DNA of 40,503 nt from Gemmatimonadota bacterium (lineage in GTDB: Bacteria > Gemmatimonadota > Gemmatimonadetes > Gemmatimonadales > GWC2-71-9): NCBI GenBank assembly GCA_003221895.1, contig QHUJ01000136.1, forward strand, positions 1 through 40,503, read 5' to 3'. Below are positions 6,640 to 21,727 of the stretch, one piece after another. Below the pieces are notes generated by a model. That model saw nothing but the letters and a program-made list of their open reading frames with translations. It did not search any database and was not told the DNA's origin. The position numbers and the translations under genes were made by a program. Each line of letters begins with the position of its first letter. The first letter of the stretch is position 1.

Positions 6640-7484
6640 CGGTCGCGGCCGCCGCCCTGCTGGCCGCATGCGGTGACGCGAGCAGTGTCCTCACGGTGGC
6701 CGGCACGGTCGAAATCCGCGAAGTCCGGCTCAGTCCTCTCGCGTCAGGCCGCCTGGAGCGCCTGCTCAAGGATGAAGGCGACTCGGTCCGCGCCGGCGAT
6801 ACCGTCGCGGTGCTCGACCAGCCGGGGCTCGAGGCCATGATCGCACAGCGCCGCGCGCTCGCCGGCGCGGCGTCTGCGCGAACTGCGGAGATCCGTGCCG
6901 CCGTGGCGGACAGTGAACGCGCGGCGAACGATCTCGCGCGCGCCCGCGTGCTGCGGGCTCAGGGCATTACCTCCCCTCAGGATTTGGACCGCGCGCAGAG
7001 CGCCGCCTCGGCAACCGCCGCCCGGCTTCAATCGGTCCGGGCCGCGGTACGCGAATCGCAAGCTGCGCGCGCGGCCGTCCAGGTCACGGAGTCAATCCGC
7101 GATCAACTGGTCTTGATCGCGCCGTCTGACGGGATCGTCCTGACGCGTTTCGCCGAGCGCGGGGAGATGATCGCCGCCGGGGTCCCCGTCGTTTCGATCG
7201 GCCTGGTCAGGAGCCCGTGGATCCGCGCCTACGTGGGCGAGCGGTTCGTCGCTCGGCTCAAGACCGGCATGGCCGTACAGGTGCATGTCGACGGCTATCC
7301 CAAGACACCGTTCGGCGGACACGTGACGGAAATCGCGCCGCGCGCCGAATTCACGCCGCGCGCCGCCCTGACCGAGCGGGAGCGCGCGGATCTCGTGTTC
7401 GGAATCAAAGTCGCGATCGATGACACGGGTGGACGCCTGAAGGCCGGTATGCCGGTACGCGTCGAAATACCGCTCCTGCCGTGA
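6591..7484 (+). CDS. HlyD-family periplasmic adaptor lipoprotein of an ABC efflux system (probable CTG start)
   Basis: The conserved adaptor begins with VAGTVEIREVRLSPLASGRLERLLKDEGD, a biotinyl-lipoyl-like half-motif. An alpha-helical hairpin follows (about residues 80-165), then the second lipoyl half (LIAPSDGIVLTRFAERGEMI) and a beta-barrel region. Such adaptors link an inner-membrane ABC exporter to the outer membrane. In the same frame upstream of GTG 6696 lies a good lipoprotein signal: Arg in the n-region, then LAVAAAALLAAC with the lipobox Cys encoded at 6669. The frame is closed by a stop at 6528, and between that stop and 6696 there is no ATG, GTG or TTG. CTG 6591 is the best start and overlaps envC by 49 bases. 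A caller limited to NTG starts without CTG would begin at 6696 and lose the signal. The stop overlaps the ABC gene (GTGA). Confidence 0.8.
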   Translation: MATAPLSLRSALYSTLAVAAAALLAACGDASSVLTVAGTVEIREVRLSPLASGRLERLLKDEGDSVRAGDTVAVLDQPGLEAMIAQRRALAGAASARTAEIRAAVADSERAANDLARARVLRAQGITSPQDLDRAQSAASATAARLQSVRAAVRESQAARAAVQVTESIRDQLVLIAPSDGIVLTRFAERGEMIAAGVPVVSIGLVRSPWIRAYVGERFVARLKTGMAVQVHVDGYPKTPFGGHVTEIAPRAEFTPRAALTERERADLVFGIKVAIDDTGGRLKAGMPVRVEIPLLP

Positions 7485-8230
7485 ACGACGTCGCAGTCGA
7501 GACTCGCCACCTCACCCGCCGTTTCGGTCCCGTCGTCGCCGTCCGCGATCTGAATCTCAGCATTGCAAAGGGCGAGGTCTTCGGCCTGCTCGGCCCCAAC
7601 GGCTCGGGCAAGACGACGACCATTCGGATGCTGTGCGGCCTGATCGCCCCCACCGAGGGAACGGCCATCGTCGCCGGCGTAGACGTCCGCGAAGCCCCCG
7701 ACAGGATCAAAGAGCTGATCGGCTACATGTCGCAGCGGTTCGGGCTGTACGAGGACCTGACGGTCGCCGAGAACATGGATTTCTACGGCGGGATCTACGG
7801 GCTGGAAGGCCCCAGCCGCCGCGGCCGCATCGCCGAGGTGGTCGCGTTTCTCGGATTGGACCGCCGTCTCGATCAGCTCGGCGGGACGCTGTCAGGCGGT
7901 TGGAAGCAGCGGCTGGGATTGGCGTGTGCCCTCATGCACCAACCCAGCGTGCTGTTCCTCGACGAGCCGACCGCGGGCGTCGACCCCGCGGCCCGCCGCG
8001 GCTTCTGGCAGACCATCCATCGGCTGGCTACGGAACAAGGCACAACCGTGATCGTCACGACCCATTACATGGACGAGGCGGGTCGGTGCGGGCGCGTGGC
8101 CTTGCTCAGCCAGGGGCATCTGATCGCGCTGGGGACGCCAGAGGAAGTCGCGAAGCAGGTCGGCGGCCAGAGCCTCGAGGATGCGTTCATCATTCTGCAG
8201 CAGCGGGACGAGCAGGAGCAGCAAGCGTGA
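7481..8230 (+). CDS. ABC exporter ATP-binding protein (YbhF/DrrA-like)
   Basis: A 249-residue ABC ATPase of the multidrug/ABC-2 type. Walker A is GPNGSGKTT (38-46), the Q-loop is in GYMSQRFGLYEDL, the signature is the variant LSGGWKQRLGLA, Walker B is VLFLDEPTAGVDP, and the switch His is in VTTHYMDEAGRC. The GWKQR signature is common in ATPases that work with YbhR/YbhS-type permeases. It sits between a HlyD adaptor and an ABC-2 permease with GTGA overlaps on both sides, so the three genes form one tripartite efflux unit. No TolC-like outer-membrane channel lies in the window. The substrate is unknown. Confidence 0.92.
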   Translation: MNDVAVETRHLTRRFGPVVAVRDLNLSIAKGEVFGLLGPNGSGKTTTIRMLCGLIAPTEGTAIVAGVDVREAPDRIKELIGYMSQRFGLYEDLTVAENMDFYGGIYGLEGPSRRGRIAEVVAFLGLDRRLDQLGGTLSGGWKQRLGLACALMHQPSVLFLDEPTAGVDPAARRGFWQTIHRLATEQGTTVIVTTHYMDEAGRCGRVALLSQGHLIALGTPEEVAKQVGGQSLEDAFIILQQRDEQEQQA

Positions 8231-12345: not shown

Positions 12346-12669
12346 ATGCTGAAACGCATTGCGCTGGCGATGCTTCTCGCGATTCAGGTGCTGGGCGGCG
12401 GCGCCGTCACGCTCGCGCACGCGCGCGACGTCGTGGCGGCACCCCCCGGTGTCGAAGCGAGCCACACCGCGCGGTGTGCCATCCTGCACGACGAGCTGCG
12501 CTGCGCGCTCTGCCAATATGCGAACGCGCATATCGTGTCGCAGCAGGTTTTCACCGTCGAGATCCCACTCGCCGGGGTGCGATTTACCCATACTCAGCCG
12601 TCTGTATCGGTCCGCTCGGTTTCCAGGCTAGCGGCCCCCGCTCGAGCCCCACCCACGCTCCTCTCCTGA
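12346..12669 (+). CDS. Small exported Cys/His protein (DUF2946-like), copy 1
   Basis: A 107-residue protein. Residues 1-26 are a signal peptide (MLKR, then a hydrophobic stretch ending TLAHA). The mature part has a compact CxxxHxxxxCxxC cluster (Cys44, His48, Cys53, Cys56, plus His40) that could bind a metal, and it ends ARAPPTLLS. Exported proteins of the DUF2946 type often pair a short Cys cluster with a C-terminal R(A/G)PP and lie next to outer-membrane metal receptors; the likeness is from memory. A related protein lies at 21376-21714 (-). The next gene encodes an outer-membrane protein and then metal-transport genes. AAGGAGG (12338-12344) is only one base from ATG 12346 but four from CTG 12349, so the exact start is uncertain. 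Confidence 0.7.
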   Translation: MLKRIALAMLLAIQVLGGGAVTLAHARDVVAAPPGVEASHTARCAILHDELRCALCQYANAHIVSQQVFTVEIPLAGVRFTHTQPSVSVRSVSRLAAPARAPPTLLS

Positions 12670-12742
12670 CGTCGTCGTGACCGCTTCGCAGGCTCGCGGA
12701 GCGCTCAGCAGTCCTTCGTAATCACAGGAGAGGACAGTGAAC

Positions 12743-13996
12743 ATGACACGCACGCTATGCGCGGCGTTGCTGGCAGCCGCGTGTTGGACCACACAGCTGG
12801 GGGCGCAGCAGCCGCCCACCCAGCGCCAGCTCGATTCGCTGGCGGCGCAAGTTCGGCAGCTGCGCACGCGGGTGGACAGCCTGCTCGCGGCGAGTCGCGC
12901 AGGCGGCGGCGTGCAACCCGCCGCCGCAGCGCCGGGTGACGAGCTTGCTCGATTGCGGGCCGCAGCGAGCCAGGCCGCCGGAGGAGGAGCGCGCGACACC
13001 ACGCCTGCAGCCGATACGATGGCTCGAGCGATCGGCCGGGAGCGCAATCAGGCGCAGCTCAATCCTGAAATCGGCGCAACGGGCGACGTGCGAGTGTACG
13101 CCACGACCGCCGGGGTTCAACAAGACAACTTTGAGCCACGCGAATTCGAAGTCGGGTTTCAATCCGCGCTCGATCCATACTCGCACACCAAGATCTTCCT
13201 CTCATTCGAGAACGACCACGTGGGCGTCGAGGAGGGATATCTCTACTGGATCGGGCTTCCCGGCCACATGCGGCTGGACCTCGGCAAATACCGGCAGCAA
13301 TTCGGCGAGCTGAACCGCTGGCATCTCCACGCGGTACCCGAGACGGAGTACCCGCTCGCGCTGACGAGCTACTTCGGTGCAGACGGTCTCGCGGGTACGG
13401 GATTGTCGTTGTACCGAGCGTTCGGCGGGTTCGGCACCCACGAGCTGACGCTGCAAGTGACGGGCAGCGAGAGCGACGCCGAGTTGTTCGGCAACAGCGG
13501 CCGGATCACGTACCTCGGACATCTGCTCAACTTCTGGCAGCTGAGCCGCTCAACATATATGCAGCTTGGATTCAGCGGCTTGTACGGCACGAATCCGGAT
13601 TCAGCCATGAAAACGGGTGTCGGTGGACTCGACTTCCGGCTCACCTGGCGGCCGCCGGCCGAAGCGTTGTATCGCGAATGGACGCTGCGTGGCGAGCTCG
13701 TGGCCCTGCACAAACAGATCGCCGGAACGGGACCGACGCGCCTCGGCGGCTACGTCAGTAGTACCTACAAGCTCAATCAGCGCTGGATTGCCGGGGTACG
13801 CTACGATTACGTGGAGTCGCCGGAGTTCGGCCAAATCACTCAGCAGATCATCCCGACGCTCACCCTGTGGGAGAGCGAGTGGGTGTTCCTGCGCGGTCAA
13901 TATCGGTGGCAAAGAGTCGCCGGCGAGACGGCGACGAACCAGTTCGCGATTCAAGCGGTCTGGGCCATCGGTCCACACAAACACGAGACCTACTAA
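12743..13996 (+). CDS. Outer-membrane porin-like protein with N-terminal coiled coil
   Basis: About 417 residues. A signal peptide ends near QLGAQQ. Residues about 25-60 form a short coiled coil (QRQLDSLAAQVRQLRTRVDSLLA), then an Ala/Gly-rich linker to about 100. From about 115 on, alternating amphipathic strands rich in aromatic residues suggest a beta-barrel (GYLYWIGLPGHMRLDLGKYRQQFG and later repeats). The C-terminus is AVWAIGPHKHETY with two His near the end. This layout resembles trimeric porins of the OprO/OprP type, but no diagnostic motif was found. It sits between a small Cys/His exported protein and the metal-binding protein, so metal uptake across the outer membrane is the likely role by context. 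AGGAGAGGA precedes the start; GTG 12737 is an alternative. Confidence 0.75.
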   Translation: MTRTLCAALLAAACWTTQLGAQQPPTQRQLDSLAAQVRQLRTRVDSLLAASRAGGGVQPAAAAPGDELARLRAAASQAAGGGARDTTPAADTMARAIGRERNQAQLNPEIGATGDVRVYATTAGVQQDNFEPREFEVGFQSALDPYSHTKIFLSFENDHVGVEEGYLYWIGLPGHMRLDLGKYRQQFGELNRWHLHAVPETEYPLALTSYFGADGLAGTGLSLYRAFGGFGTHELTLQVTGSESDAELFGNSGRITYLGHLLNFWQLSRSTYMQLGFSGLYGTNPDSAMKTGVGGLDFRLTWRPPAEALYREWTLRGELVALHKQIAGTGPTRLGGYVSSTYKLNQRWIAGVRYDYVESPEFGQITQQIIPTLTLWESEWVFLRGQYRWQRVAGETATNQFAIQAVWAIGPHKHETY

Positions 13997-15033
13997 TGCT
14001 ACACATCATTTCCCTCCTGCTCGGCCTGTCCGGCGCCCACACTCCCGCACCGGCTGCTCCGGTGAAGGTCGTCACGTCGCTCACCTCCTACGCTGCGATC
14101 GCTACGGAAATCGTGGGGGACCGCGGCAAGGTGAGCTCCATCGCGGTCGGCGACGAGAACCCGCACTACGTGCAGCCGAAGCCGAGCTTCGTGCCGACGC
14201 TGGCGCAGGCGGACGTCTTCGTAACCACGGGGCTCGATCTCGAGCTGTGGGTTCCGGCCCTGCTCGATAAGGCCAACAACCCGAAGATCACCGAGGGTGG
14301 ACCGGGGTACGTGGCGGCCTATCAGGGGATCAACCTGCTCGATGTGCCCGCCAACCTGTCGCGCTCGCAGGGCGACATTCACGTCTACGGCAATCCGCAC
14401 ATCTGGACCGATCCGCTCAACGCGGTGCTGATCGCGCGCAACATTCTGCGCGGCCTCAAGCGCGTGTCACCCCAGGACGCCGATTACTTCACCACGCGCG
14501 AGAAGGACTTCGAGGATCGAATCTACCGCGCGTTGTTCGGGGACGAGCTGGTAAAGCTGCTTGGCGGTGAGTCGCTGGCCGATCTCGATCGCCAGGGCAA
14601 GCTGTTGACGTTCCTTGGCTCGCAACAATATCAGGGCGCCCCGCTCATGAATCACCTCGGCGGGTGGCTCAAGCAGGGCATGCCCTTCCGCGGCAAGCTG
14701 GTCGCCTGCTATCACAAGGAGTGGGACTACTTCTCGCGGGAATTCCAGGTCACGTGCTTCGATTACATCGAACCGAAGCCCGGTATCCCCCCCACGCCGC
14801 GGCACGTGCAGGAAATCATCACGGCGATGCGTGACCAGCACATCCAGGTCCTGCTCTCGACCAACTACTATGATCGGAGTCAGGTGATGGACGTCGCCCA
14901 GCGGACGGGCGCCAAGGCGGTCATCGTGCCGTCTAATACCGGAGGCCAGGCGGGTGTGAATACCTACTTCGACCTCATGAATCTCTGGGTCACCGAGCTT
15001 GCCCAGGCTTTCGGCGCGAAGGAGGTTCCGTGA
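13996..15033 (+). CDS. Metal ABC transporter substrate-binding protein (ZnuA/TroA-like)
   Basis: A 345-residue periplasmic cluster A-1 binding protein for zinc or manganese. A short hydrophobic N-terminus (LLHIISLLLGLSGAH-like, residues 2-15) acts as signal. The expected metal ligands are His57 (in ENPHYVQPKPS), His135 (in NPHIWTDP) and His240 (in ACYHKEWDYF), with a C-terminal acidic ligand likely near the end. No His-rich loop of the ZnuA kind is present, and there is a charged insertion at about 180-215 (LVKLLGGESLADLDRQGK). ATG 13996 overlaps the porin stop as TAATG. The permease follows with a GTGA overlap. The ATPase is missing from this locus. Metal specificity cannot be read from sequence alone. 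Confidence 0.88.
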   Translation: MLHIISLLLGLSGAHTPAPAAPVKVVTSLTSYAAIATEIVGDRGKVSSIAVGDENPHYVQPKPSFVPTLAQADVFVTTGLDLELWVPALLDKANNPKITEGGPGYVAAYQGINLLDVPANLSRSQGDIHVYGNPHIWTDPLNAVLIARNILRGLKRVSPQDADYFTTREKDFEDRIYRALFGDELVKLLGGESLADLDRQGKLLTFLGSQQYQGAPLMNHLGGWLKQGMPFRGKLVACYHKEWDYFSREFQVTCFDYIEPKPGIPPTPRHVQEIITAMRDQHIQVLLSTNYYDRSQVMDVAQRTGAKAVIVPSNTGGQAGVNTYFDLMNLWVTELAQAFGAKEVP

Positions 15034-15884
15034 GCGGCCTGGAGTTGATGCTGCCGCCATTCGTCGCATGCATGATCCTGGTGGCCATGTTGTCGTACCT
15101 CGGGCTGCACGTCATCGCGCGTGAGGTGATCTTCGTCGACCTCTCGCTGGCGCAGATGGCCGCGCTGGGCAGCCTGTCAGCCCTGCTGTTCCATGTCGCT
15201 CCGGAGTCGCCGACGACGTATGTGTTCGCCCTGCTGGCGACGGCTGTGGGCGCGTTCCTGTTCGCACTCACCCGCTCCTCCAACCATGGCGGCACCGTCG
15301 GCGCCGGCCGGGTGCCGCAGGAGGCGTTCATCGGCATCGTGTACGTGGTGGCATCGGCCGCTGCCGTGCTGGTCGCGAACAAGGTGCCGGGCGGCGGCGA
15401 GGCCGTGGAGAAGACGCTGGTCGGCAGTCTGCTGTGGGTAACCTGGAAAACGATTCGTAACCTGGCGCTGGCCTATGTGGCGCTCGGAGTCTTTCAGTTC
15501 GCGCTGCGGCGCCGCTTTCTCACGATCTCGTTCCATCCCGAGCAGGCCGAAGCCCAGGGCTGGAAGGTGCGGCTTTGGGACTTTCTCTTCTATCTGTCGT
15601 TCGGTGTTGTGATCACGTTAGCCGTCCCCATCGCGGGAGTGCTGATGGTCTTCAGCTTCCTGGTTGTTCCGGCGGTGATCGCGAACCTGTTCACGGCGGA
15701 CAAACGGAAGCTCACAATCATCGCCTGGAGCTCGGGAGCGCTCGCATCGATTCTCGGCCTGTGGCTTTCGTACACAAAGGATCTGCCGACTGGCCCGCTG
15801 GTCGTGTGCATGTACGGGCTGCTGCTCATCGGCGCGGCAGTGTTGCGGAGGCTTGGGGTGGGGGACAAGGCGGTGGCATCCTGA
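15030..15884 (+). CDS. Metal ABC transporter permease (ZnuB/TroC-like)
   Basis: A 284-residue inner-membrane protein with about eight hydrophobic segments. Family features are FVACMILVAMLSYLGLHVIAREVIFVDLSLAQMAALGSL near the N-terminus and ITLAVPIAGVLMVFSFLVVPAVIANLF in the second half, the ABC-3 permease signature. The loop SFHPEQAEAQGWKVRLWDFLFY corresponds to the EAA-like ATPase contact region. It should carry Zn, Mn or Fe with the binding protein upstream. GTG 15030 overlaps the previous stop (GTGA). No ATPase gene is adjacent; the ZnuC partner must be encoded elsewhere. Its stop overlaps a CTG start as CTGA. Confidence 0.9.
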   Translation: MSGLELMLPPFVACMILVAMLSYLGLHVIAREVIFVDLSLAQMAALGSLSALLFHVAPESPTTYVFALLATAVGAFLFALTRSSNHGGTVGAGRVPQEAFIGIVYVVASAAAVLVANKVPGGGEAVEKTLVGSLLWVTWKTIRNLALAYVALGVFQFALRRRFLTISFHPEQAEAQGWKVRLWDFLFYLSFGVVITLAVPIAGVLMVFSFLVVPAVIANLFTADKRKLTIIAWSSGALASILGLWLSYTKDLPTGPLVVCMYGLLLIGAAVLRRLGVGDKAVAS

Positions 15885-16531
15885 CAGCCGAGCGAGCGGG
15901 CCGGCGGGCGGGCGGCCGGCTGCTTGCGGTGCTGTTGCTGCTACCCACCTGCCCCCTAGCCCGCTTGCCCGCTCAGGTTGCTCTGCACGCCACCGTCGGC
16001 GCCCGCTACACCAGCGCTCTCGTTCACGACTCCATCGTCATTCCCGTCGATGTGCAGCCCGCCATCGGCCCGGCGCTCGCACTGGCGATCAGTCAGCACA
16101 CCAGCAGCCCGTGGACGCCGGACGCCAATCTCGACGTCTCGTGGTCCTCGCTGCAGCGCCACGAGAGCGGTACAACGAGCAAGTTCAATTCGGTGACCAC
16201 GATCGCGTTCACAGTCGGTGTCCGTCGCGAGATCGCCCACGGTCTCACGGCACGCGCGGGTTTCGGCGCCATTAAGCATCTGCCGAGCGAGGACATCGGA
16301 ATGTTTCGGACCGGTACCGGACTGTGGGCACTCGGCACCGCGAGCCTCTATTGGACACCCTCGGCCCTCCGGGGAGTGTCGCGCGACATCGGCCTGTCGC
16401 TGCGCTACGATGTGCACCGGTTCTCTACCGCGGCATTGCACGCCGACGGATTCACCTCGACGCAGCTGGTCCATCGCCTGTCGCTGGGGATCGGGATGCG
16501 CGTTCTCGGGAAAGGCGCAACCGCGCCATGA
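15881..16531 (+). CDS. Small exported beta-rich protein (probable outer-membrane protein), probable CTG start
   Basis: About 216 residues. Read from CTG 15881 the N-terminus is an Arg-rich n-region (TAERAGRRAGGR), a hydrophobic core (LLAVLLLLP) and a cleavage site after RLPA. The mature part alternates polar and apolar residues with Tyr/Trp at turns (HATVGARYTSALVHD, GLWALGTASLYWTP, IGLSLRYDVHRFS) and ends in LSLGIGMRVLGKG, suggesting an 8-10 stranded barrel. I do not recognise a family. No ATG, GTG or TTG is suitably placed; GTG 15929 would remove the charged n-region. CTG overlaps the permease stop as CTGA. The stop overlaps the next start as ATGA. Its place in the metal operon suggests an envelope role. 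Confidence 0.65.
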   Translation: MTAERAGRRAGGRLLAVLLLLPTCPLARLPAQVALHATVGARYTSALVHDSIVIPVDVQPAIGPALALAISQHTSSPWTPDANLDVSWSSLQRHESGTTSKFNSVTTIAFTVGVRREIAHGLTARAGFGAIKHLPSEDIGMFRTGTGLWALGTASLYWTPSALRGVSRDIGLSLRYDVHRFSTAALHADGFTSTQLVHRLSLGIGMRVLGKGATAP

Positions 16532-17160
16532 AACGGCGACTGATCATCGGTGCCGTGCTCCTTGTGGCGTGCAGTGAACCGACTGCGCCTGGCCGTACGG
16601 CATGGTATAGCTTCGACTTCGCAGGGGACGTGTTCCGCTGGCCCGAGAGCCGGGTGCCCGTGCGCTACTATGCCGACACGCGGAGCAACATGCGCGACCT
16701 CGTCGAGCGCGCCATCGGCACGTGGGAGGATCAAGTCCTGTATGGCGAGTTCTCGGGTGAGATGGTCAACGATTCGACCGTGGCCGACGTGATCGTGACG
16801 TGGTTCGACAGCGTGCCGCCGAACGTGCCTCCCCCCCCGGATAACGGCCCGCCCGTGTTCGCGTGCGACGGCGTCACGACCTTACAGCTGGACAGTACGG
16901 GCACGGCGCTCGCGGAACCGATTCACACGCAAATCCGCATCACGACGGCGCAGGTCTACACCGCGGCGCAGGTTGCTGCCTGTTTACGGCGCGTGACGAT
17001 TCATGAGCTGGGGCACACCCTGGGATTGTTACAGGAGAGTCCCGACCAGCAAGACATCATGTATTCCACTGTGCAGGTATCGGCGCCGAGTGCGCGCGAT
17101 CATCAGACGGTGCAGGTGTTGTATCACACCGCCCCGACGATCGCGCCCGCACCCCGCTAG
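16528..17160 (+). CDS. Lipoprotein with metzincin-like protease motif, altered third ligand
   Basis: A 210-residue lipoprotein: KRRLIIGAVLLVAC gives a lipobox with Cys15. The N-terminal half of the mature part carries a matrixin-like strand (VPVRYYADTRSNMRDLVERAIGTWED). The zinc motif is HELGHTLGLLQ at 159-169, followed by DIMYS, which fits a metzincin Met-turn. Metzincins have HExxHxxGxxH/D; here position 169 is Gln. Either a different residue completes the site or activity is altered. Prolines at about 100-110 form a PPNVPPPPDNGPP linker. It is the last gene of the plus-strand metal operon (ATGA overlap with the previous gene). Its TAG shares a CTAG palindrome with the stop of the convergent protease gene. 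Confidence 0.75.
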   Translation: MKRRLIIGAVLLVACSEPTAPGRTAWYSFDFAGDVFRWPESRVPVRYYADTRSNMRDLVERAIGTWEDQVLYGEFSGEMVNDSTVADVIVTWFDSVPPNVPPPPDNGPPVFACDGVTTLQLDSTGTALAEPIHTQIRITTAQVYTAAQVAACLRRVTIHELGHTLGLLQESPDQQDIMYSTVQVSAPSARDHQTVQVLYHTAPTIAPAPR

Positions 17161-18827
17161 CGAATCCGCGCGACCACCAGGCGCGGAACGATCGTCGCCG
17201 AAAGCGACGCGCCTTCGGGGCCGCTGAAATGCAGGGTGAATGCCGCGCCGCCCGGTGCCTGCACCGCTCGCACGTATTCGCCCGATCCGGAGTGGAGCGT
17301 ACCACTGAGATTGACCGCGCTGCCTGCCGATAGGGGAGGCACCAGCGGATACGGCTGTGGAAAGTCCGCTGGGCGCTGGGTGTGCAACGACGCATACGTG
17401 CGACGGAAATGCCACGTCTTGTACTGGAGCTCGGGAGGAGTGGAGAAGCCGACGAGATCGGATACGTAGTTCGCCAAGGCCCACCGGCTTATCGTCTGAT
17501 CGAAGGGCTGGCCTGTCTTTGCTGCGACATTCGCCGCCCCGGTGAGATTGCTCTGCACCAGCTTGCCCGGCAGCGAATCGTTGAACTGATCGACCACATA
17601 GCGCACAAAGAGCCAGCTCGCTCCGATCTCCGCGAGTGAACCGGTGTCCTCGGGAATCAGGAGTGGTGAGCTGCCGGGATCGAGCAGGTACTGGTTTGCA
17701 TCATAGACCGAATTGAAGGCGTAATTGCTGAAGGTTGCCGTGTCTCCTTGGGCGAGATAACTGCGTCCCGCGATCTCTTCCGCATACTTCGAGAGCCCCT
17801 CATCGAGCCACCCCTCCTCGGAGTCCGCCCCCTTCACCCTCACATGCTCCACGAAGTTGATCATGTGCTGGAATTCGTGGGTGAACGTGACCGGCGTAGT
17901 ATGAATGACTTCCTGCGCGGGGTGCGCGCAGCTCAGCGTGCTGTCGGGATCAGCCACAATCGAATAGAAGATTTCGCCGTTGTTGAACTGCGGCGCGGCA
18001 ATGGGATCGAGATCACCGGAGAAAAAGAAGCCCGCGATGTAGCCGCTGCTGTGACAATGCGCCTTGGTGACGAGCTTGTTCACCACACCGGTCATCAGAA
18101 CAATGGCGACAGTGTTCGAATCGATATCGGAAACATGCCCAAACGCCACGGTATCGATTGGATACAGCCGCGTGTCAAAGACTTGCCGCAAAGAGTCGAA
18201 GTCGGCCGTCGCAAGACCGGGCGATGGCGCTGTGGTGTCGACATAGATCGCGATGTGCAGGCCGACTGACTGGACCCGGGCACCGACGCTCGCGAAGCTG
18301 GAGCAGGTGAAATTCGAGCAAACCTTGAACGTCCGCACACTCCCAACTGTCGGGGGACCGGCGGTCGTCGATGGCAGCGGCACCGTGGCCGGCGCTGCTG
18401 CGAACCCCGTGTGCAGCGGGTAGCGCCGCGACCGCGCCATCCCCCGGAGGAAATAGTCGAAGGCCGCTGCCGCCGCGCCATGACTTCCCCCGCCGAATGA
18501 CGCCATCTGCGGAATCGCGATCGACGCGGCCGGCGTCTCTGAGACCAGCGAGAATGGCGCGGAAACGATCGGCGTCGGCGCCGCCGACCACGGGAGCACC
18601 AAGTACTCGGCCGAATCGGTCATCGAAGCGTTAACCGGGAAGTGGACGCATCCGGAGTCGCTCGCGGGATCGAGCACCTGATACGCCGTGACGGCGAGCG
18701 CGATGTCGGTTCCGTGTGCTGTACATGCCAGCGGCCCCGGTCCGGGCGAGTCGTGGACGCATGCGGCGGCTGCGAGCAGCAGCAGGCTCGCGAGCGACCT
18801 GCTCGCGAGACGAGATTGCCAATTCAC
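17157..18827 (-). CDS. Lipoprotein zinc metallopeptidase, M30 (hyicolysin)-like
   Basis: A 556-residue exported protein. The N-terminus SLASLLLLAAAAC is a lipobox signal. The catalytic region has HEFQHMINF (His317, Glu318, His321) and then EEGWLDEGLSKYAEE, where Glu343 is the likely third zinc ligand, as in gluzincins; HE.QHMI.F plus WL.EGLS points to the M30 hyicolysin type. A Cys pair at about 190-195 (CSNFTC) may form a disulfide. The C-terminal ~100 residues look like a beta-sandwich. GTG 18827 is preceded by GGGAG at a usable distance. It lies 110 bases downstream of the TonB receptor gene with a possible promoter of its own. Function is inferred: cell-surface or periplasmic proteolysis. 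Confidence 0.8.
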   Translation of the reverse strand: MNWQSRLASRSLASLLLLAAAACVHDSPGPGPLACTAHGTDIALAVTAYQVLDPASDSGCVHFPVNASMTDSAEYLVLPWSAAPTPIVSAPFSLVSETPAASIAIPQMASFGGGSHGAAAAAFDYFLRGMARSRRYPLHTGFAAAPATVPLPSTTAGPPTVGSVRTFKVCSNFTCSSFASVGARVQSVGLHIAIYVDTTAPSPGLATADFDSLRQVFDTRLYPIDTVAFGHVSDIDSNTVAIVLMTGVVNKLVTKAHCHSSGYIAGFFFSGDLDPIAAPQFNNGEIFYSIVADPDSTLSCAHPAQEVIHTTPVTFTHEFQHMINFVEHVRVKGADSEEGWLDEGLSKYAEEIAGRSYLAQGDTATFSNYAFNSVYDANQYLLDPGSSPLLIPEDTGSLAEIGASWLFVRYVVDQFNDSLPGKLVQSNLTGAANVAAKTGQPFDQTISRWALANYVSDLVGFSTPPELQYKTWHFRRTYASLHTQRPADFPQPYPLVPPLSAGSAVNLSGTLHSGSGEYVRAVQAPGGAAFTLHFSGPEGASLSATIVPRLVVARIR

Positions 18828-18889
18828 TGTGAACGCTCCCGGTTACGCGCCAGCGGTACAGGGGGGACGGCGACGAGTGTGGTACCCCG

Positions 18890-18895
18890 ATTATC
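18890..18895 (-). promoter_or_regulatory. -10 box upstream of the M30-like protease gene
   Basis: GATAAT on the minus strand, five of six bases of the sigma70 consensus, would start transcription about 55 nt before GTG 18827. The -35 region 17 bp upstream is poor. Confidence 0.35.
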
Positions 18896-18937
18896 AAAAA
18901 GCATGCGCATTTTCCGTTCCCCCCTGGGTGTCTGGCC

Positions 18938-21268
18938 TCACATACCGATGGTGAGCTTCAATTGCACGCTGCGGGGACGACCCACCGAAGCGCCGCTGAA
19001 GAATGCGCCCTTGAGCAGATACTTGCTGTCGAAAACGTTATCGACGTACAACTGCGGGCGGAGTATCGTCCGCCCCACTGTAAACGCATATCCGGCGCTC
19101 GCGTTAACGATGAAGTTGGGATCCACGTGCGTGTTCTTGTTGAAGTCGAACAGGCCACGACCGTAGGTCGAATCGGGATCGTTACCGTTGGTCAGGCCGG
19201 TCCCATAGATACCTGTGGCCGACAGATAGAGCCCACGATTGGAGTAGACCGCACTGGCCACCCCAGAGACCCGCTGGTCGTGGTCCAGATCGAAGTATCC
19301 GGGCGAGGAGTCGGGCGGGAAAAAGCCTCCGGTGATCGGGTGGCTCCCGTAGGCGTGGTTGATCGCGACGTTGACATAGCCCGACACGGGCCCGGAGGGG
19401 CGAATCTCGAGTACACCCTCAAGCCCGGTGATGCTGACCTTCGCGATGTTCACGGATGTGACGATCGCGGTCCCCGATACGGTCGCGTCGTCGATTCCCG
19501 GCTCACTCTGCTTCTTGTACGCGGACAACTTGGTCACCAAACCGAACGGAAAGCGATGCACGTATCCGAGCTCGAAGAAATTGTCGCGCTCAGGCAGCGT
19601 CGGCGCGGCGACCACGCCGCCCTGCGACGTGCTCGTGATGGCGCGAAGGTCCTCGACGTTCGTCGGGAGAAACAGCCTGCCGTAGTAGATCCAGAACGTG
19701 TTCCCGGGATCGGGGAGGAAGCTCAGCTTGGCGCGCGGGCTCAGCTGATTCTGATTGCCCGCAAACGGTGCGTTGTGGTTGTCGAAGCGTACGCCGGCCC
19801 GAAACTCCCACTGATCGGTCGGCGCAATGGCGGTCTGCGCGTAACCGCCCACGTCGCTCCCGGTGAGATCGGAATTCGACGACGGTCCAGGCGACCCTGT
19901 GTTCGTCCGGGACGAAAAGTCCTCGTGGCCGCTGGTAAACTGCGCCAGTATGCCGGTCTTGAACTCGAGGCCGTGGTGCGGGCGCAGGGTGTAATCGACC
20001 TTTGCGCCGGTGGTATGGAAGTTCCGATCTTCGGAGATGATGTATGAATTTGAGTCGCCCGGGAACACGAACGTCGCGGAGTCGGTGACTCCGGGCGTGT
20101 AGGTGAGACTGCCGTCGCGGAAGAACCCGCCGAGGAACAGCTCCGAGGTCTTGCCGAGCGCGAGGTTTTCCTCACCGAGCTGATGTCGCCAGCCGACATT
20201 GACGAATCCGTTGACGTCCTGCTGATGGTCGTCGATGATGCCCTCCGCGGAATCGAACGGGACTTCAAAGCGTGTCCGCGAGCGGTTCACTTCGATGTTC
20301 ACGACATCGCGATCCGTGGCGGTGTATTGCAGCTTCGCGAAGCCAAAGACGTCGGAGCCGTTATTGTGAAAGTTCTCGACCACGTTGTTGAGTGTGTCGA
20401 ATACCACCGGCTCGCGGCGCATCTCGCTCGACTGCCGTGATCCGGAGGCGAAAAAGCCCCATCTGCCGCTGTTCGTGCTCAGCGTCAGCGCCTGACCGTT
20501 CGTCGATTGGTTAGTCGATGGGGATCCCGTCTGAAAGGACCCGCCGAAACCCGAGAACTCGCCGTGAAAGCCGCCGCTCGGAATGCGCGTGTTGATGTTG
20601 ACCACGGCCGCGTTCTTATTGCCGAACTCCGCGTCCCAGCCCCCGGTCTGGAATTCGATTTGGTTCACGACCTGCGGGTCGAACAGCTCGTTGAGGCTTC
20701 CCGAAATCCCGGACGGCACGGGGATGCCATCTACATAGTAGGTGTACTCGGCGTGCTGGCCACGGATGTGAACCTCTCCAGTCGGCGCCCGCGCCGCGCC
20801 GACGATGGACTGTTGCAGCAGCTGCGACGTCGTGTTCGTCGGAGCGCCGTGGTAATCGTTCTGTTTGAAGATCTGGTTTCCGGTACGGGTGTCGACGGCC
20901 AACGGAACTGAGGTCTCCACTTCGACGGCTGACAGACTGATCGGCAACGGCACGAGGCGAAAATCCGCCCGGCTGAATTCCTCCGTCGCCCCAACCGACA
21001 CATCGTGCGTCTGCGCGCGGTAGCCGAGAAACCGCACTTCGACGCGATAACTGCCGCTCGGCAGGTTGTGAACCACGAACCGGCCGAACGCATCGGTGAC
21101 AGTGGTCGCAACGACGTTGCCGGACTGCAGAACGCGAACTTCGCCGCCGGCCAGCGGTGTTCCGGCAGCACTGTCGGTGACGCTTCCACCGATGTCCCCG
21201 CTTGGCGGCACGCCTTTCGAGGGCGCAACCGCCAAGACAAATGCACTCAGCAATGTGAGGAAGTGCAT
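18938..21268 (-). CDS. TonB-dependent outer-membrane receptor with carboxypeptidase-regulatory-like N-terminal domain
   Basis: A 776-residue outer-membrane protein. After the signal (MHFLTLLSAFVLAVAPS) comes a beta-sandwich of the CarboxypepD_reg type (about 30-110: GGSVTDSAAGTPLAGGEVRVLQ, GRFVVHNLPSGSYRVEVRFLGY). The plug domain follows (about 125-235: SQLLQQSIVGAARAPTGEVHIRGQHAEYTYYVDGIPV) and then a long beta-barrel ending VQLKLTIGM. The final residue is Met, not the usual aromatic. ATG 21268 has GGGAGAG four bases upstream; a longer open frame upstream is not used. The gene preceding it encodes a small Cys/His exported protein and the one after it a zinc metallopeptidase. The ligand is unknown; metal chelate uptake fits the context but peptide or sugar uptake is possible. 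Confidence 0.9.
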   Translation of the reverse strand: MHFLTLLSAFVLAVAPSKGVPPSGDIGGSVTDSAAGTPLAGGEVRVLQSGNVVATTVTDAFGRFVVHNLPSGSYRVEVRFLGYRAQTHDVSVGATEEFSRADFRLVPLPISLSAVEVETSVPLAVDTRTGNQIFKQNDYHGAPTNTTSQLLQQSIVGAARAPTGEVHIRGQHAEYTYYVDGIPVPSGISGSLNELFDPQVVNQIEFQTGGWDAEFGNKNAAVVNINTRIPSGGFHGEFSGFGGSFQTGSPSTNQSTNGQALTLSTNSGRWGFFASGSRQSSEMRREPVVFDTLNNVVENFHNNGSDVFGFAKLQYTATDRDVVNIEVNRSRTRFEVPFDSAEGIIDDHQQDVNGFVNVGWRHQLGEENLALGKTSELFLGGFFRDGSLTYTPGVTDSATFVFPGDSNSYIISEDRNFHTTGAKVDYTLRPHHGLEFKTGILAQFTSGHEDFSSRTNTGSPGPSSNSDLTGSDVGGYAQTAIAPTDQWEFRAGVRFDNHNAPFAGNQNQLSPRAKLSFLPDPGNTFWIYYGRLFLPTNVEDLRAITSTSQGGVVAAPTLPERDNFFELGYVHRFPFGLVTKLSAYKKQSEPGIDDATVSGTAIVTSVNIAKVSITGLEGVLEIRPSGPVSGYVNVAINHAYGSHPITGGFFPPDSSPGYFDLDHDQRVSGVASAVYSNRGLYLSATGIYGTGLTNGNDPDSTYGRGLFDFNKNTHVDPNFIVNASAGYAFTVGRTILRPQLYVDNVFDSKYLLKGAFFSGASVGRPRSVQLKLTIGM

Positions 21269-21375
21269 GAAACTCTCCCGAAGTGAGCCACACACACACG
21301 CACTCCACCGGTTGAGGAGCCGTGCTATGAGGTCGTGTTTCGAATTGCGGTCGCCGCGGACGGCGGCGCCGTCAC

Positions 21376-21714
21376 TCAGGAAAGCGTGGGAGGAGCGCGG
21401 GAATCGGGGAGAGTGAGGTCGGCTGCTGTCGAGGACCGCTCGACGGCCGACGGCGTCGAGCGGATGCCCTGCCCTTGGCGCGTGCGCCAGACGACCGGCG
21501 CGCTGCGGGCGAACGGCGCCGCAAGGAACCGGTGGAATGCACAGTCTGCCGGGTGAACGCGGGCACAGGCGGCGGTGGAGTGCGACTCGATGTGCGCGGG
21601 ACCGCTGCGGTGCTCGAGGCGAGCGTCCGCCCAAGCAGCGGCGGCCGGGACGCTGAACTGCAACAGCGTCAGGAGAAGCAGCGTCGTGCGAACCACGAGC
21701 GAGCGTTTCCGCAT
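21376..21714 (-). CDS. Small exported Cys/His protein (DUF2946-like), copy 2
   Basis: A 112-residue protein. The signal peptide is MRKRSLVVRTTLLLL followed by a core ending SVPAAAAWA. The mature part carries Cys50-x3-His54-x3-Cys58-x2-His61, with HIESHSTAAC before it, and ends DSRAPPTLS. Aligned with the protein at 12346-12669, the blocks (V/I)E, TAxCAxxH, CAx(C/H) and RAPPTL(L)S match, so the two are probably paralogues, this copy having His in place of the last Cys. It lies 107 bases upstream of the TonB receptor gene on the same strand. ATG 21714 is preceded by TATTAT seven bases upstream, a leaderless-type start; ATG 21723 in frame is less likely. Metal binding is inferred. Confidence 0.7.
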   Translation of the reverse strand: MRKRSLVVRTTLLLLTLLQFSVPAAAAWADARLEHRSGPAHIESHSTAACARVHPADCAFHRFLAAPFARSAPVVWRTRQGQGIRSTPSAVERSSTAADLTLPDSRAPPTLS

Positions 21715-21721
21715 CGGCGGC

Positions 21722-21727
21722 ATAATA
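21722..21727 (-). promoter_or_regulatory. -10 box of the small Cys/His gene, leaderless spacing
   Basis: TATTAT on the minus strand is followed by seven bases and then ATG 21714, the same spacing as at pcm. It would drive the small gene and the TonB receptor gene. Confidence 0.45.

Follow-up and report, generated by a model that had tools for sequence, protein, structure and literature searches.

What do two small exported Cys/His proteins do at the head of two gene units for outer-membrane proteins? The question is raised by the window, i.e., the whole stretch of 40,503 nucleotides analysed here, which is contig 172 of a 3.7 Mb, 97% complete Gemmatimonadota genome. The two proteins, called small A and small B, lie in convergent units (Table 1). 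A preliminary description had listed the small proteins, the outer-membrane proteins, the lipobox proteases, the binding protein and the permease of these units, all of which are indeed present, and had taken the small proteins for metal carriers or sensors serving the adjacent receptor.

Table 1. Features of the two units, with their positions in the window
Feature	Coordinates	Strand	Basis or remark
uORF A (small A), 107-aa exported Cys/His protein, end RAPPTLLS, heads porin-znuA-znuB	12346..12669	+	homologues in most genus members, RAPP conserved
Metal-type motif of uORF A, E37...C44-x3-H48-x4-C53-A-L-C56	12454..12513	+	E37, H48, C53 invariant in 33 members
RAPP codons of uORF A (putative arrest motif)	12643..12654	+	family conservation; arrest motif per PMC10951233, PMC12992588
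Anti-Shine-Dalgarno (anti-SD) UCCUCUCCUG, last codons of uORF A	12659..12668	+	10-bp complement of porin SD
SD region CAGGAGAGGA of porin gene	12725..12734	+	pairing analysis
Porin-like outer-membrane beta-barrel, N-terminal helical segment	12743..13996	+	low-confidence barrel model; relative L170 weakly matches Porin_O_P
ZnuA-family metal-binding protein	13993..15033	+	PF01297, E 4.5e-42
ZnuB-like ABC-3 permease	15030..15884	+	PF00950, E 1.3e-30; sole one found in genome
Small outer-membrane-like protein (omp6), accessory	15881..16531	+	no family match; in some relatives
Matrixin-type zinc protease with lipobox, accessory	16528..17160	+	PF00413, E 3.7e-8
HExxH peptidase-like protein with lipobox (pepMA), TonB-unit accessory	17157..18827	-	weak Peptidase_MA_2, E 0.11; after tonB in several genera
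TonB-dependent receptor with carboxypeptidase-regulatory-like domain (tonB)	18938..21268	-	PF00593, E 5e-19; start (likely ~21268) picked by SD
SD region UCGGGAGAGU of TonB receptor gene	21272..21281	-	pairing analysis
Anti-SD GCUUUCCUGA, last codons and stop of uORF B	21376..21385	-	10-bp complement counting G.U pairs
RAPP codons of uORF B (putative arrest motif)	21388..21399	-	family conservation
Metal-type motif of uORF B, E46-x-H48...C53-x3-H57-x3-C61-A-F-H64	21532..21588	-	family alignment
uORF B (small B), 115-aa exported Cys/His protein, end RAPPTLS, heads tonB-pepMA	21376..21723	-	homologues in relatives

The locus and its relatives

A search with the closer family alignment returned 14 closest named loci, all from Gemmatimonadetes/Gemmatimonadales MAGs, and the sample names of many of these give depths (30cm, 40cm), which suggests soil. 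Small A starts 8 nt past nfo, directly after the pcm-nfo pair, and small B is the first gene of its unit; the borders of the locus, pcm-nfo and the malic enzyme gene malE, were found by neighbourhood comparison to be kept in most relatives of the genus. The same comparison gave A-porin-znuA-znuB and B-tonB(-pepMA) as the stable pieces, with the matrixin and omp6 as optional genes that are present together in some relatives only. The matched convergent layout, to which the preliminary description had attached significance, was rejected as a conserved architecture: several sister genera carry A-porin-znuA-znuB-B-tonB on one strand, the convergent form is one of two arrangements among relatives, and the conserved feature lies elsewhere. 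No support was found, either, for the proposed role of the proteases in using or releasing metal at the cell surface, these being variable accessories that come and go across relatives.

The porin-like protein and its relatives have a conserved N-terminal helical, coiled-coil-like segment ahead of the barrel (12743-13000 in the window). Its structure model is of low confidence (pLDDT 50.7), and porin folds are the best structural matches, with a TM below 0.5.

A family of small exported proteins

Small A and small B have in common a Glu, the cluster C-x3-H-x3/4-C-A-x-(C/H) and the C-terminal RAPPTL(L)S. When the two were run separately as queries on 61 relatives they arrived at common loci, and query A retrieved B orthologues in two genomes (E 0.002-0.01); on these grounds the two proteins are, as judged from their sequences, homologous, and the relationship that had been suspected between them holds. 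By profile search, 174 of the order's 288 genomes have the family, which also occurs elsewhere in the phylum, in other families of Gemmatimonadota. Its members carry signal peptides, and an alignment of 33 of them has invariant E37, H48, C53, R100, P102 and P103; A has CxxC and B has CxxH (CAFH, with a Cys replaced by His). The AlphaFold2 model of small A is of low confidence (mean pLDDT 57.7) and mostly unstructured past the signal helix and two short helices.

A link to DUF2946 (PF11162, cut-off 23.7 bits) had also been suggested. The hint was apt insofar as 17 of the 33 members match this model weakly (best E 1.2e-4, with two members scored singly at 20.1 and 19.3 bits), but neither window protein matches it, nor does any other protein of the same genome. 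Since the window proteins fail the model and the matches of their relatives stay below its threshold, the family seems best placed inside the RAPP metal-uORF kind, as a sister group that is divergent and zinc-linked.

The C-terminal RAPP and its nearly fixed spacing

All 33 first-round members close with R(A/G)PP and 2-5 further residues. Among 66 held-out members from the order, which leave out a 67th match that was weak and antisense on L145, R(A/G)PP was present in 65 and RPPP in one. The profile used for that search contained RAPP itself, and a further search was made with an N-terminal-only profile that is blind to the C-terminus; outside the order it gave 21 matches, 19 with R(A/G)PP and two with RPPP. 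The background of the motif is about 2% of the long ORF ends in all fetched loci, family members counted in. Both window proteins, as products of short exported uORFs, carry the C-terminal RAPP/RGPP motif in its RAPP form. The rare RPPP, a naturally occurring alternative to RAPP, was seen in L137, L266 and L254 (G065 A, G449 and G382), and L254 has two family members in tandem before one TonB receptor, with the ends RPPP and RGPP.

The last motif Cys precedes the Arg of RAPP by 43-46 residues (about 44) in 64 of 65 held-out members; the invariant His precedes it by 51-54 residues in the first set. The linker of about 40 residues in between is unconserved, with a mean majority fraction of 0.30 vs 0.98 for RAPP. 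Such conservation of length but not of sequence suits a chain that runs through the exit tunnel, its metal site lying just beyond, and does not suit a folded carrier. ApdA and ApdP have RAPP as their established arrest motif (PMC10951233). The motif also ends CruR, the product of a DUF2946 uORF that puts a TonB receptor in Bordetella under copper control, in which the Cys motif and RAPP are 45 residues apart, a distance kept to one or two residues (PMC9426467). CruR was later shown to arrest in vitro with RAP in the P site, the two Pro codons occupying the P and A sites (PMC12992588).

Complementarity between the uORF end and the next gene

Over 10 bp the porin SD region is matched in reverse complement by the codons that close small A (...CTC CTC TCC TGA), and the end of small B forms 10 pairs, G.U included, with the SD region of tonB. 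In relatives the sequence varies and the complementarity stays, as in CUCCCGUUC/GAACGGGAG of G034 and UGAGCUGA/UCAGCUCA of G051. Matched partners in the first set paired at -17.0 kcal/mol vs -13.4 for swapped partners; the corresponding values were -15.6 vs -12.3 for the 17 members without the common TCTCCTGA and -15.3 vs -12.7 for the held-out set (z -7.4), and in each of these comparisons 0 of 20,000 permutations were as strong. When an 18-nt segment was slid along the uORF, z was about -9 at the stop and |z| about 1 or less upstream, the signal being confined to segments that end within ~15 nt of the uORF stop. Pairing is common and not universal: at least 7 contiguous pairs are formed by 46% of matched vs 18% of swapped pairs, and in the f2 members L162, L165, L171, L173 and L176 it is weak or absent.

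A ribosome that stalls on RAPP would have the anti-SD segment inside its footprint or adjoining it. When this footprint was blocked in a folding model, the mean predicted SD accessibility of 33 members rose from 0.08 to 0.34 (p 3e-5). For uORF A the predicted value went from 0.00 to 0.47. That for uORF B hardly moved (0.00 to 0.05), since the model finds an alternative partner, so that the fold lends no support to unmasking by B.

Downstream genes and the question of the metal

The preliminary description had also linked the small proteins to outer-membrane proteins, and the neighbourhoods of relatives bear this out, as the gene directly next encodes an outer-membrane protein in 111 of the 117 members with a downstream ORF (~95%). 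It is the porin of a ZnuA/ZnuB unit in 41 cases, a TonB receptor of the window type in 29, a ZnuD-like receptor in 35 and a TolC/OEP channel in 6, the remaining 6 being unclassified, in part through a doubtful choice of start. The ZnuD-like receptors, a second type found in f2 and different from the window receptor, have ZnuD NF038289 as their best NCBIfam family, at 177-239 bits and under the cut-off of 950. The TolC/OEP efflux channels follow family members in L143, L144, L146 and L182, and the TolC-heading members of genus g42 have a His-rich motif, HYSHDEANCAVC, with the first Cys absent.

The A unit has the binding protein and the permease of a ZnuABC system, and no ZnuC ATPase was found in the operon, here or in f1 relatives, nor a dedicated one in the genome, where the best ATPase adjoins a BtuC/FecC-type permease. 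An ATPase of the window (7481-8230) was dropped as a candidate ZnuC, as it scores under this BtuC/FecC-linked one. In some f2 relatives (L155, L159, L166, L170) the ZnuC ATPase sits between znuA and znuB. The solved structures nearest to the ZnuA-like protein are Fe, Mn and Zn binders, including YfeA. With structural neighbours of such mixed metals, the assignment of zinc as the sensed metal rests on gene neighbourhood and ligand set.

Proposed mechanism and comparison with known systems

Small A and small B are probably cis-acting uORFs for exported nascent-chain metal sensors, zinc-linked relatives of CruR and CutF (DUF2946-like), which would arrest at RAPP and, when stalled, unmask the next SD. 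When metal is scarce, the ribosome would stall at the C-terminal RAPP and cover the final 3-4 uORF codons, where most of the anti-SD lies; the SD of the next gene would thereby be freed, that of porin-znuA-znuB for A and that of the TonB receptor for B, and the uptake proteins would be made. Ample metal would bind the Glu/His/Cys cluster, just out of the exit tunnel and ~44 residues upstream, and folding or pulling would then lift the arrest, whereupon translation would be completed and the anti-SD would pair again and shut off the next gene. Homology, conservation of motif and spacing, co-varying anti-SD/SD pairing and gene neighbourhood are results of the computation; from these we infer that the ribosome arrests, that metal is bound, that this metal is zinc, and which sign the response has. 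Activation at low metal is proposed because of the analogy with CruR and the logic of uptake genes. For members that head TolC-type efflux genes, which count against the model, the sign should, by analogy, be opposite to that of the uptake model, and perhaps it is.

CruR (BP2923 of Bordetella pertussis, DUF2946; PMC9426467) is like the family in being a small exported uORF protein that heads a TonB receptor operon, in its Cys motif ~45 residues before a C-terminal RAPP, in its long intergenic region and in its C>G bubble; it is, however, a copper sensor that acts via Rho, whereas the window family has zinc-type importers as neighbours. Of the features of CruR, the family here shares RAPP with the ~45-residue spacing (43-46) and the place before TonB or metal genes; of the two window proteins, A alone has CxxC. 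The family differs from CruR in its invariant Glu and His, in CxxH for CxxC in B, in window proteins that miss the DUF2946 model, and in the anti-SD of the terminal codons, of which the excerpts of PMC9426467 make no mention for CruR. CutF of Rhodobacter capsulatus (PMC9973294) is likewise an exported nascent sensor with a Pro-rich C-terminus and an mRNA structure that masks the downstream SD, but it reads copper through CxxxC and switches on a multicopper oxidase, a detoxification gene, with copper enhancing the stalling, whereas the model proposed for the present family has activation at low metal. In ApdA, ApdP and SecM the C-terminal arrest is of the same RAPP/RAGP kind, with SecM-type unmasking of a downstream SD; they monitor protein export, whereas the present family combines a metal-type motif with neighbours for metal transport. 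The ZnuABC/ZnuD system of zinc uptake resembles the locus in ZnuA, ZnuB and the ZnuD-like receptors of relatives, and differs in that no Zur was found and the window operon has no ZnuC. RAPP/RGPP uORFs before TonB receptors form a general class across Gram-negative bacteria that was surveyed in PMC12992588, a text in which a term search found no occurrence of zinc or Gemmatimonad. To this known kind the present analysis adds the anti-SD coupling and the porin-ZnuAB class.

Alternative explanations

The points against SD unmasking are the weak or absent pairing in several f2 members, the small opening for uORF B and a C>G bubble, which both uORFs have at their 3' end (C of 0.46-0.49, G of 0.21-0.24). 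The bubble resembles that described for CruR, and together with the members that miss strong anti-SD pairing it would suit a model in which the same nascent-chain arrest is read out by Rho-dependent attenuation of transcription before the next gene, the SD pairing being secondary. We consider such an output unlikely, as a pure Rho model leaves the co-varying and position-specific complementarity without a role, although a Rho component as in CruR is possible. The metal, too, may be questioned: the weak similarity to DUF2946, the CruR-like spacing, the CXXC of many members and the close solved ZnuA relatives that bind Mn or Fe would fit an ordinary CruR family that senses copper, or metals generally, and not zinc. 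This we hold to be rather improbable, though somewhat less so than the Rho output, since the neighbours are ZnuA/ZnuB and ZnuD-like receptors and not the PepSY, PCuAC and Sco genes reported beside CruR homologues. Moreover, the invariant His and Glu, and the Cys-to-His replacement in the CAFH of B, suit Zn(II) better than Cu(I).

It is very unlikely that the peptides, like SecM, monitor export (the load on Sec or on OMP assembly) and that their Cys/His residues have another role, e.g., in a disulfide. The members do have signal peptides, and many RAPP peptides monitor Sec/YidC (excerpts of PMC7897499 and PMC10987492), but His and Glu are invariant alongside the Cys residues, and the genes that follow belong to metal uptake or to efflux channels and are neither sec nor bam. 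As for the view of the preliminary description, its sensor half is well supported, in the sense of sensors for the adjacent receptor. That the small proteins act on this receptor as mature periplasmic carriers or sensors, as the signal peptide and metal-type residues would allow, is highly improbable: RAPP is the most conserved part and nearly invariant, the linker is unconserved yet nearly constant in length, the model is mostly disordered, and the last codons pair at the level of RNA. Cis-acting uORF products are thus more likely than periplasmic carriers.

The missing repressor and the meaning of the family

In the 97%-complete window genome no FUR-family protein (Fur/Zur/PerR) was found at E<=0.001, a level reached by a FUR-family match in 214 of the 288 genomes of the order; most members of the genus have no FUR match or only a weak one (~1e-4). 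In family f1 a strong match was present in 6 of 23 genomes with both uORFs vs 59 of 79 others (p 4e-5, with kinship ignored). The absence of Fur is confounded with phylogeny and with the incompleteness of MAGs, and it was rejected as proof of substitution, given that the negative association in f1 ignores phylogeny. A zinc-responsive nascent-peptide switch, in which the chain senses and the last codons of the uORF supply the anti-SD, might replace the missing Zur-type repressor in the control of zinc uptake in these Gemmatimonadota, a tentative suggestion towards which we lean more to doubt than to belief.

A search of the openly licensed literature found no report of a zinc-responsive uORF of the CruR/CutF kind, the characterised ones that were found being for copper. 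The family would tie the same kind of arrest peptide, over a large part of a phylum, to importers of the zinc type, and it offers a testable molecular output in an anti-SD at the ribosome footprint, with a natural set of compensatory changes. Its nearly constant spacing of ~44 residues may make it a natural assay for force-released arrest, and the family also suggests a way in which zinc uptake might be controlled in bacteria that have no detectable Fur/Zur repressor.
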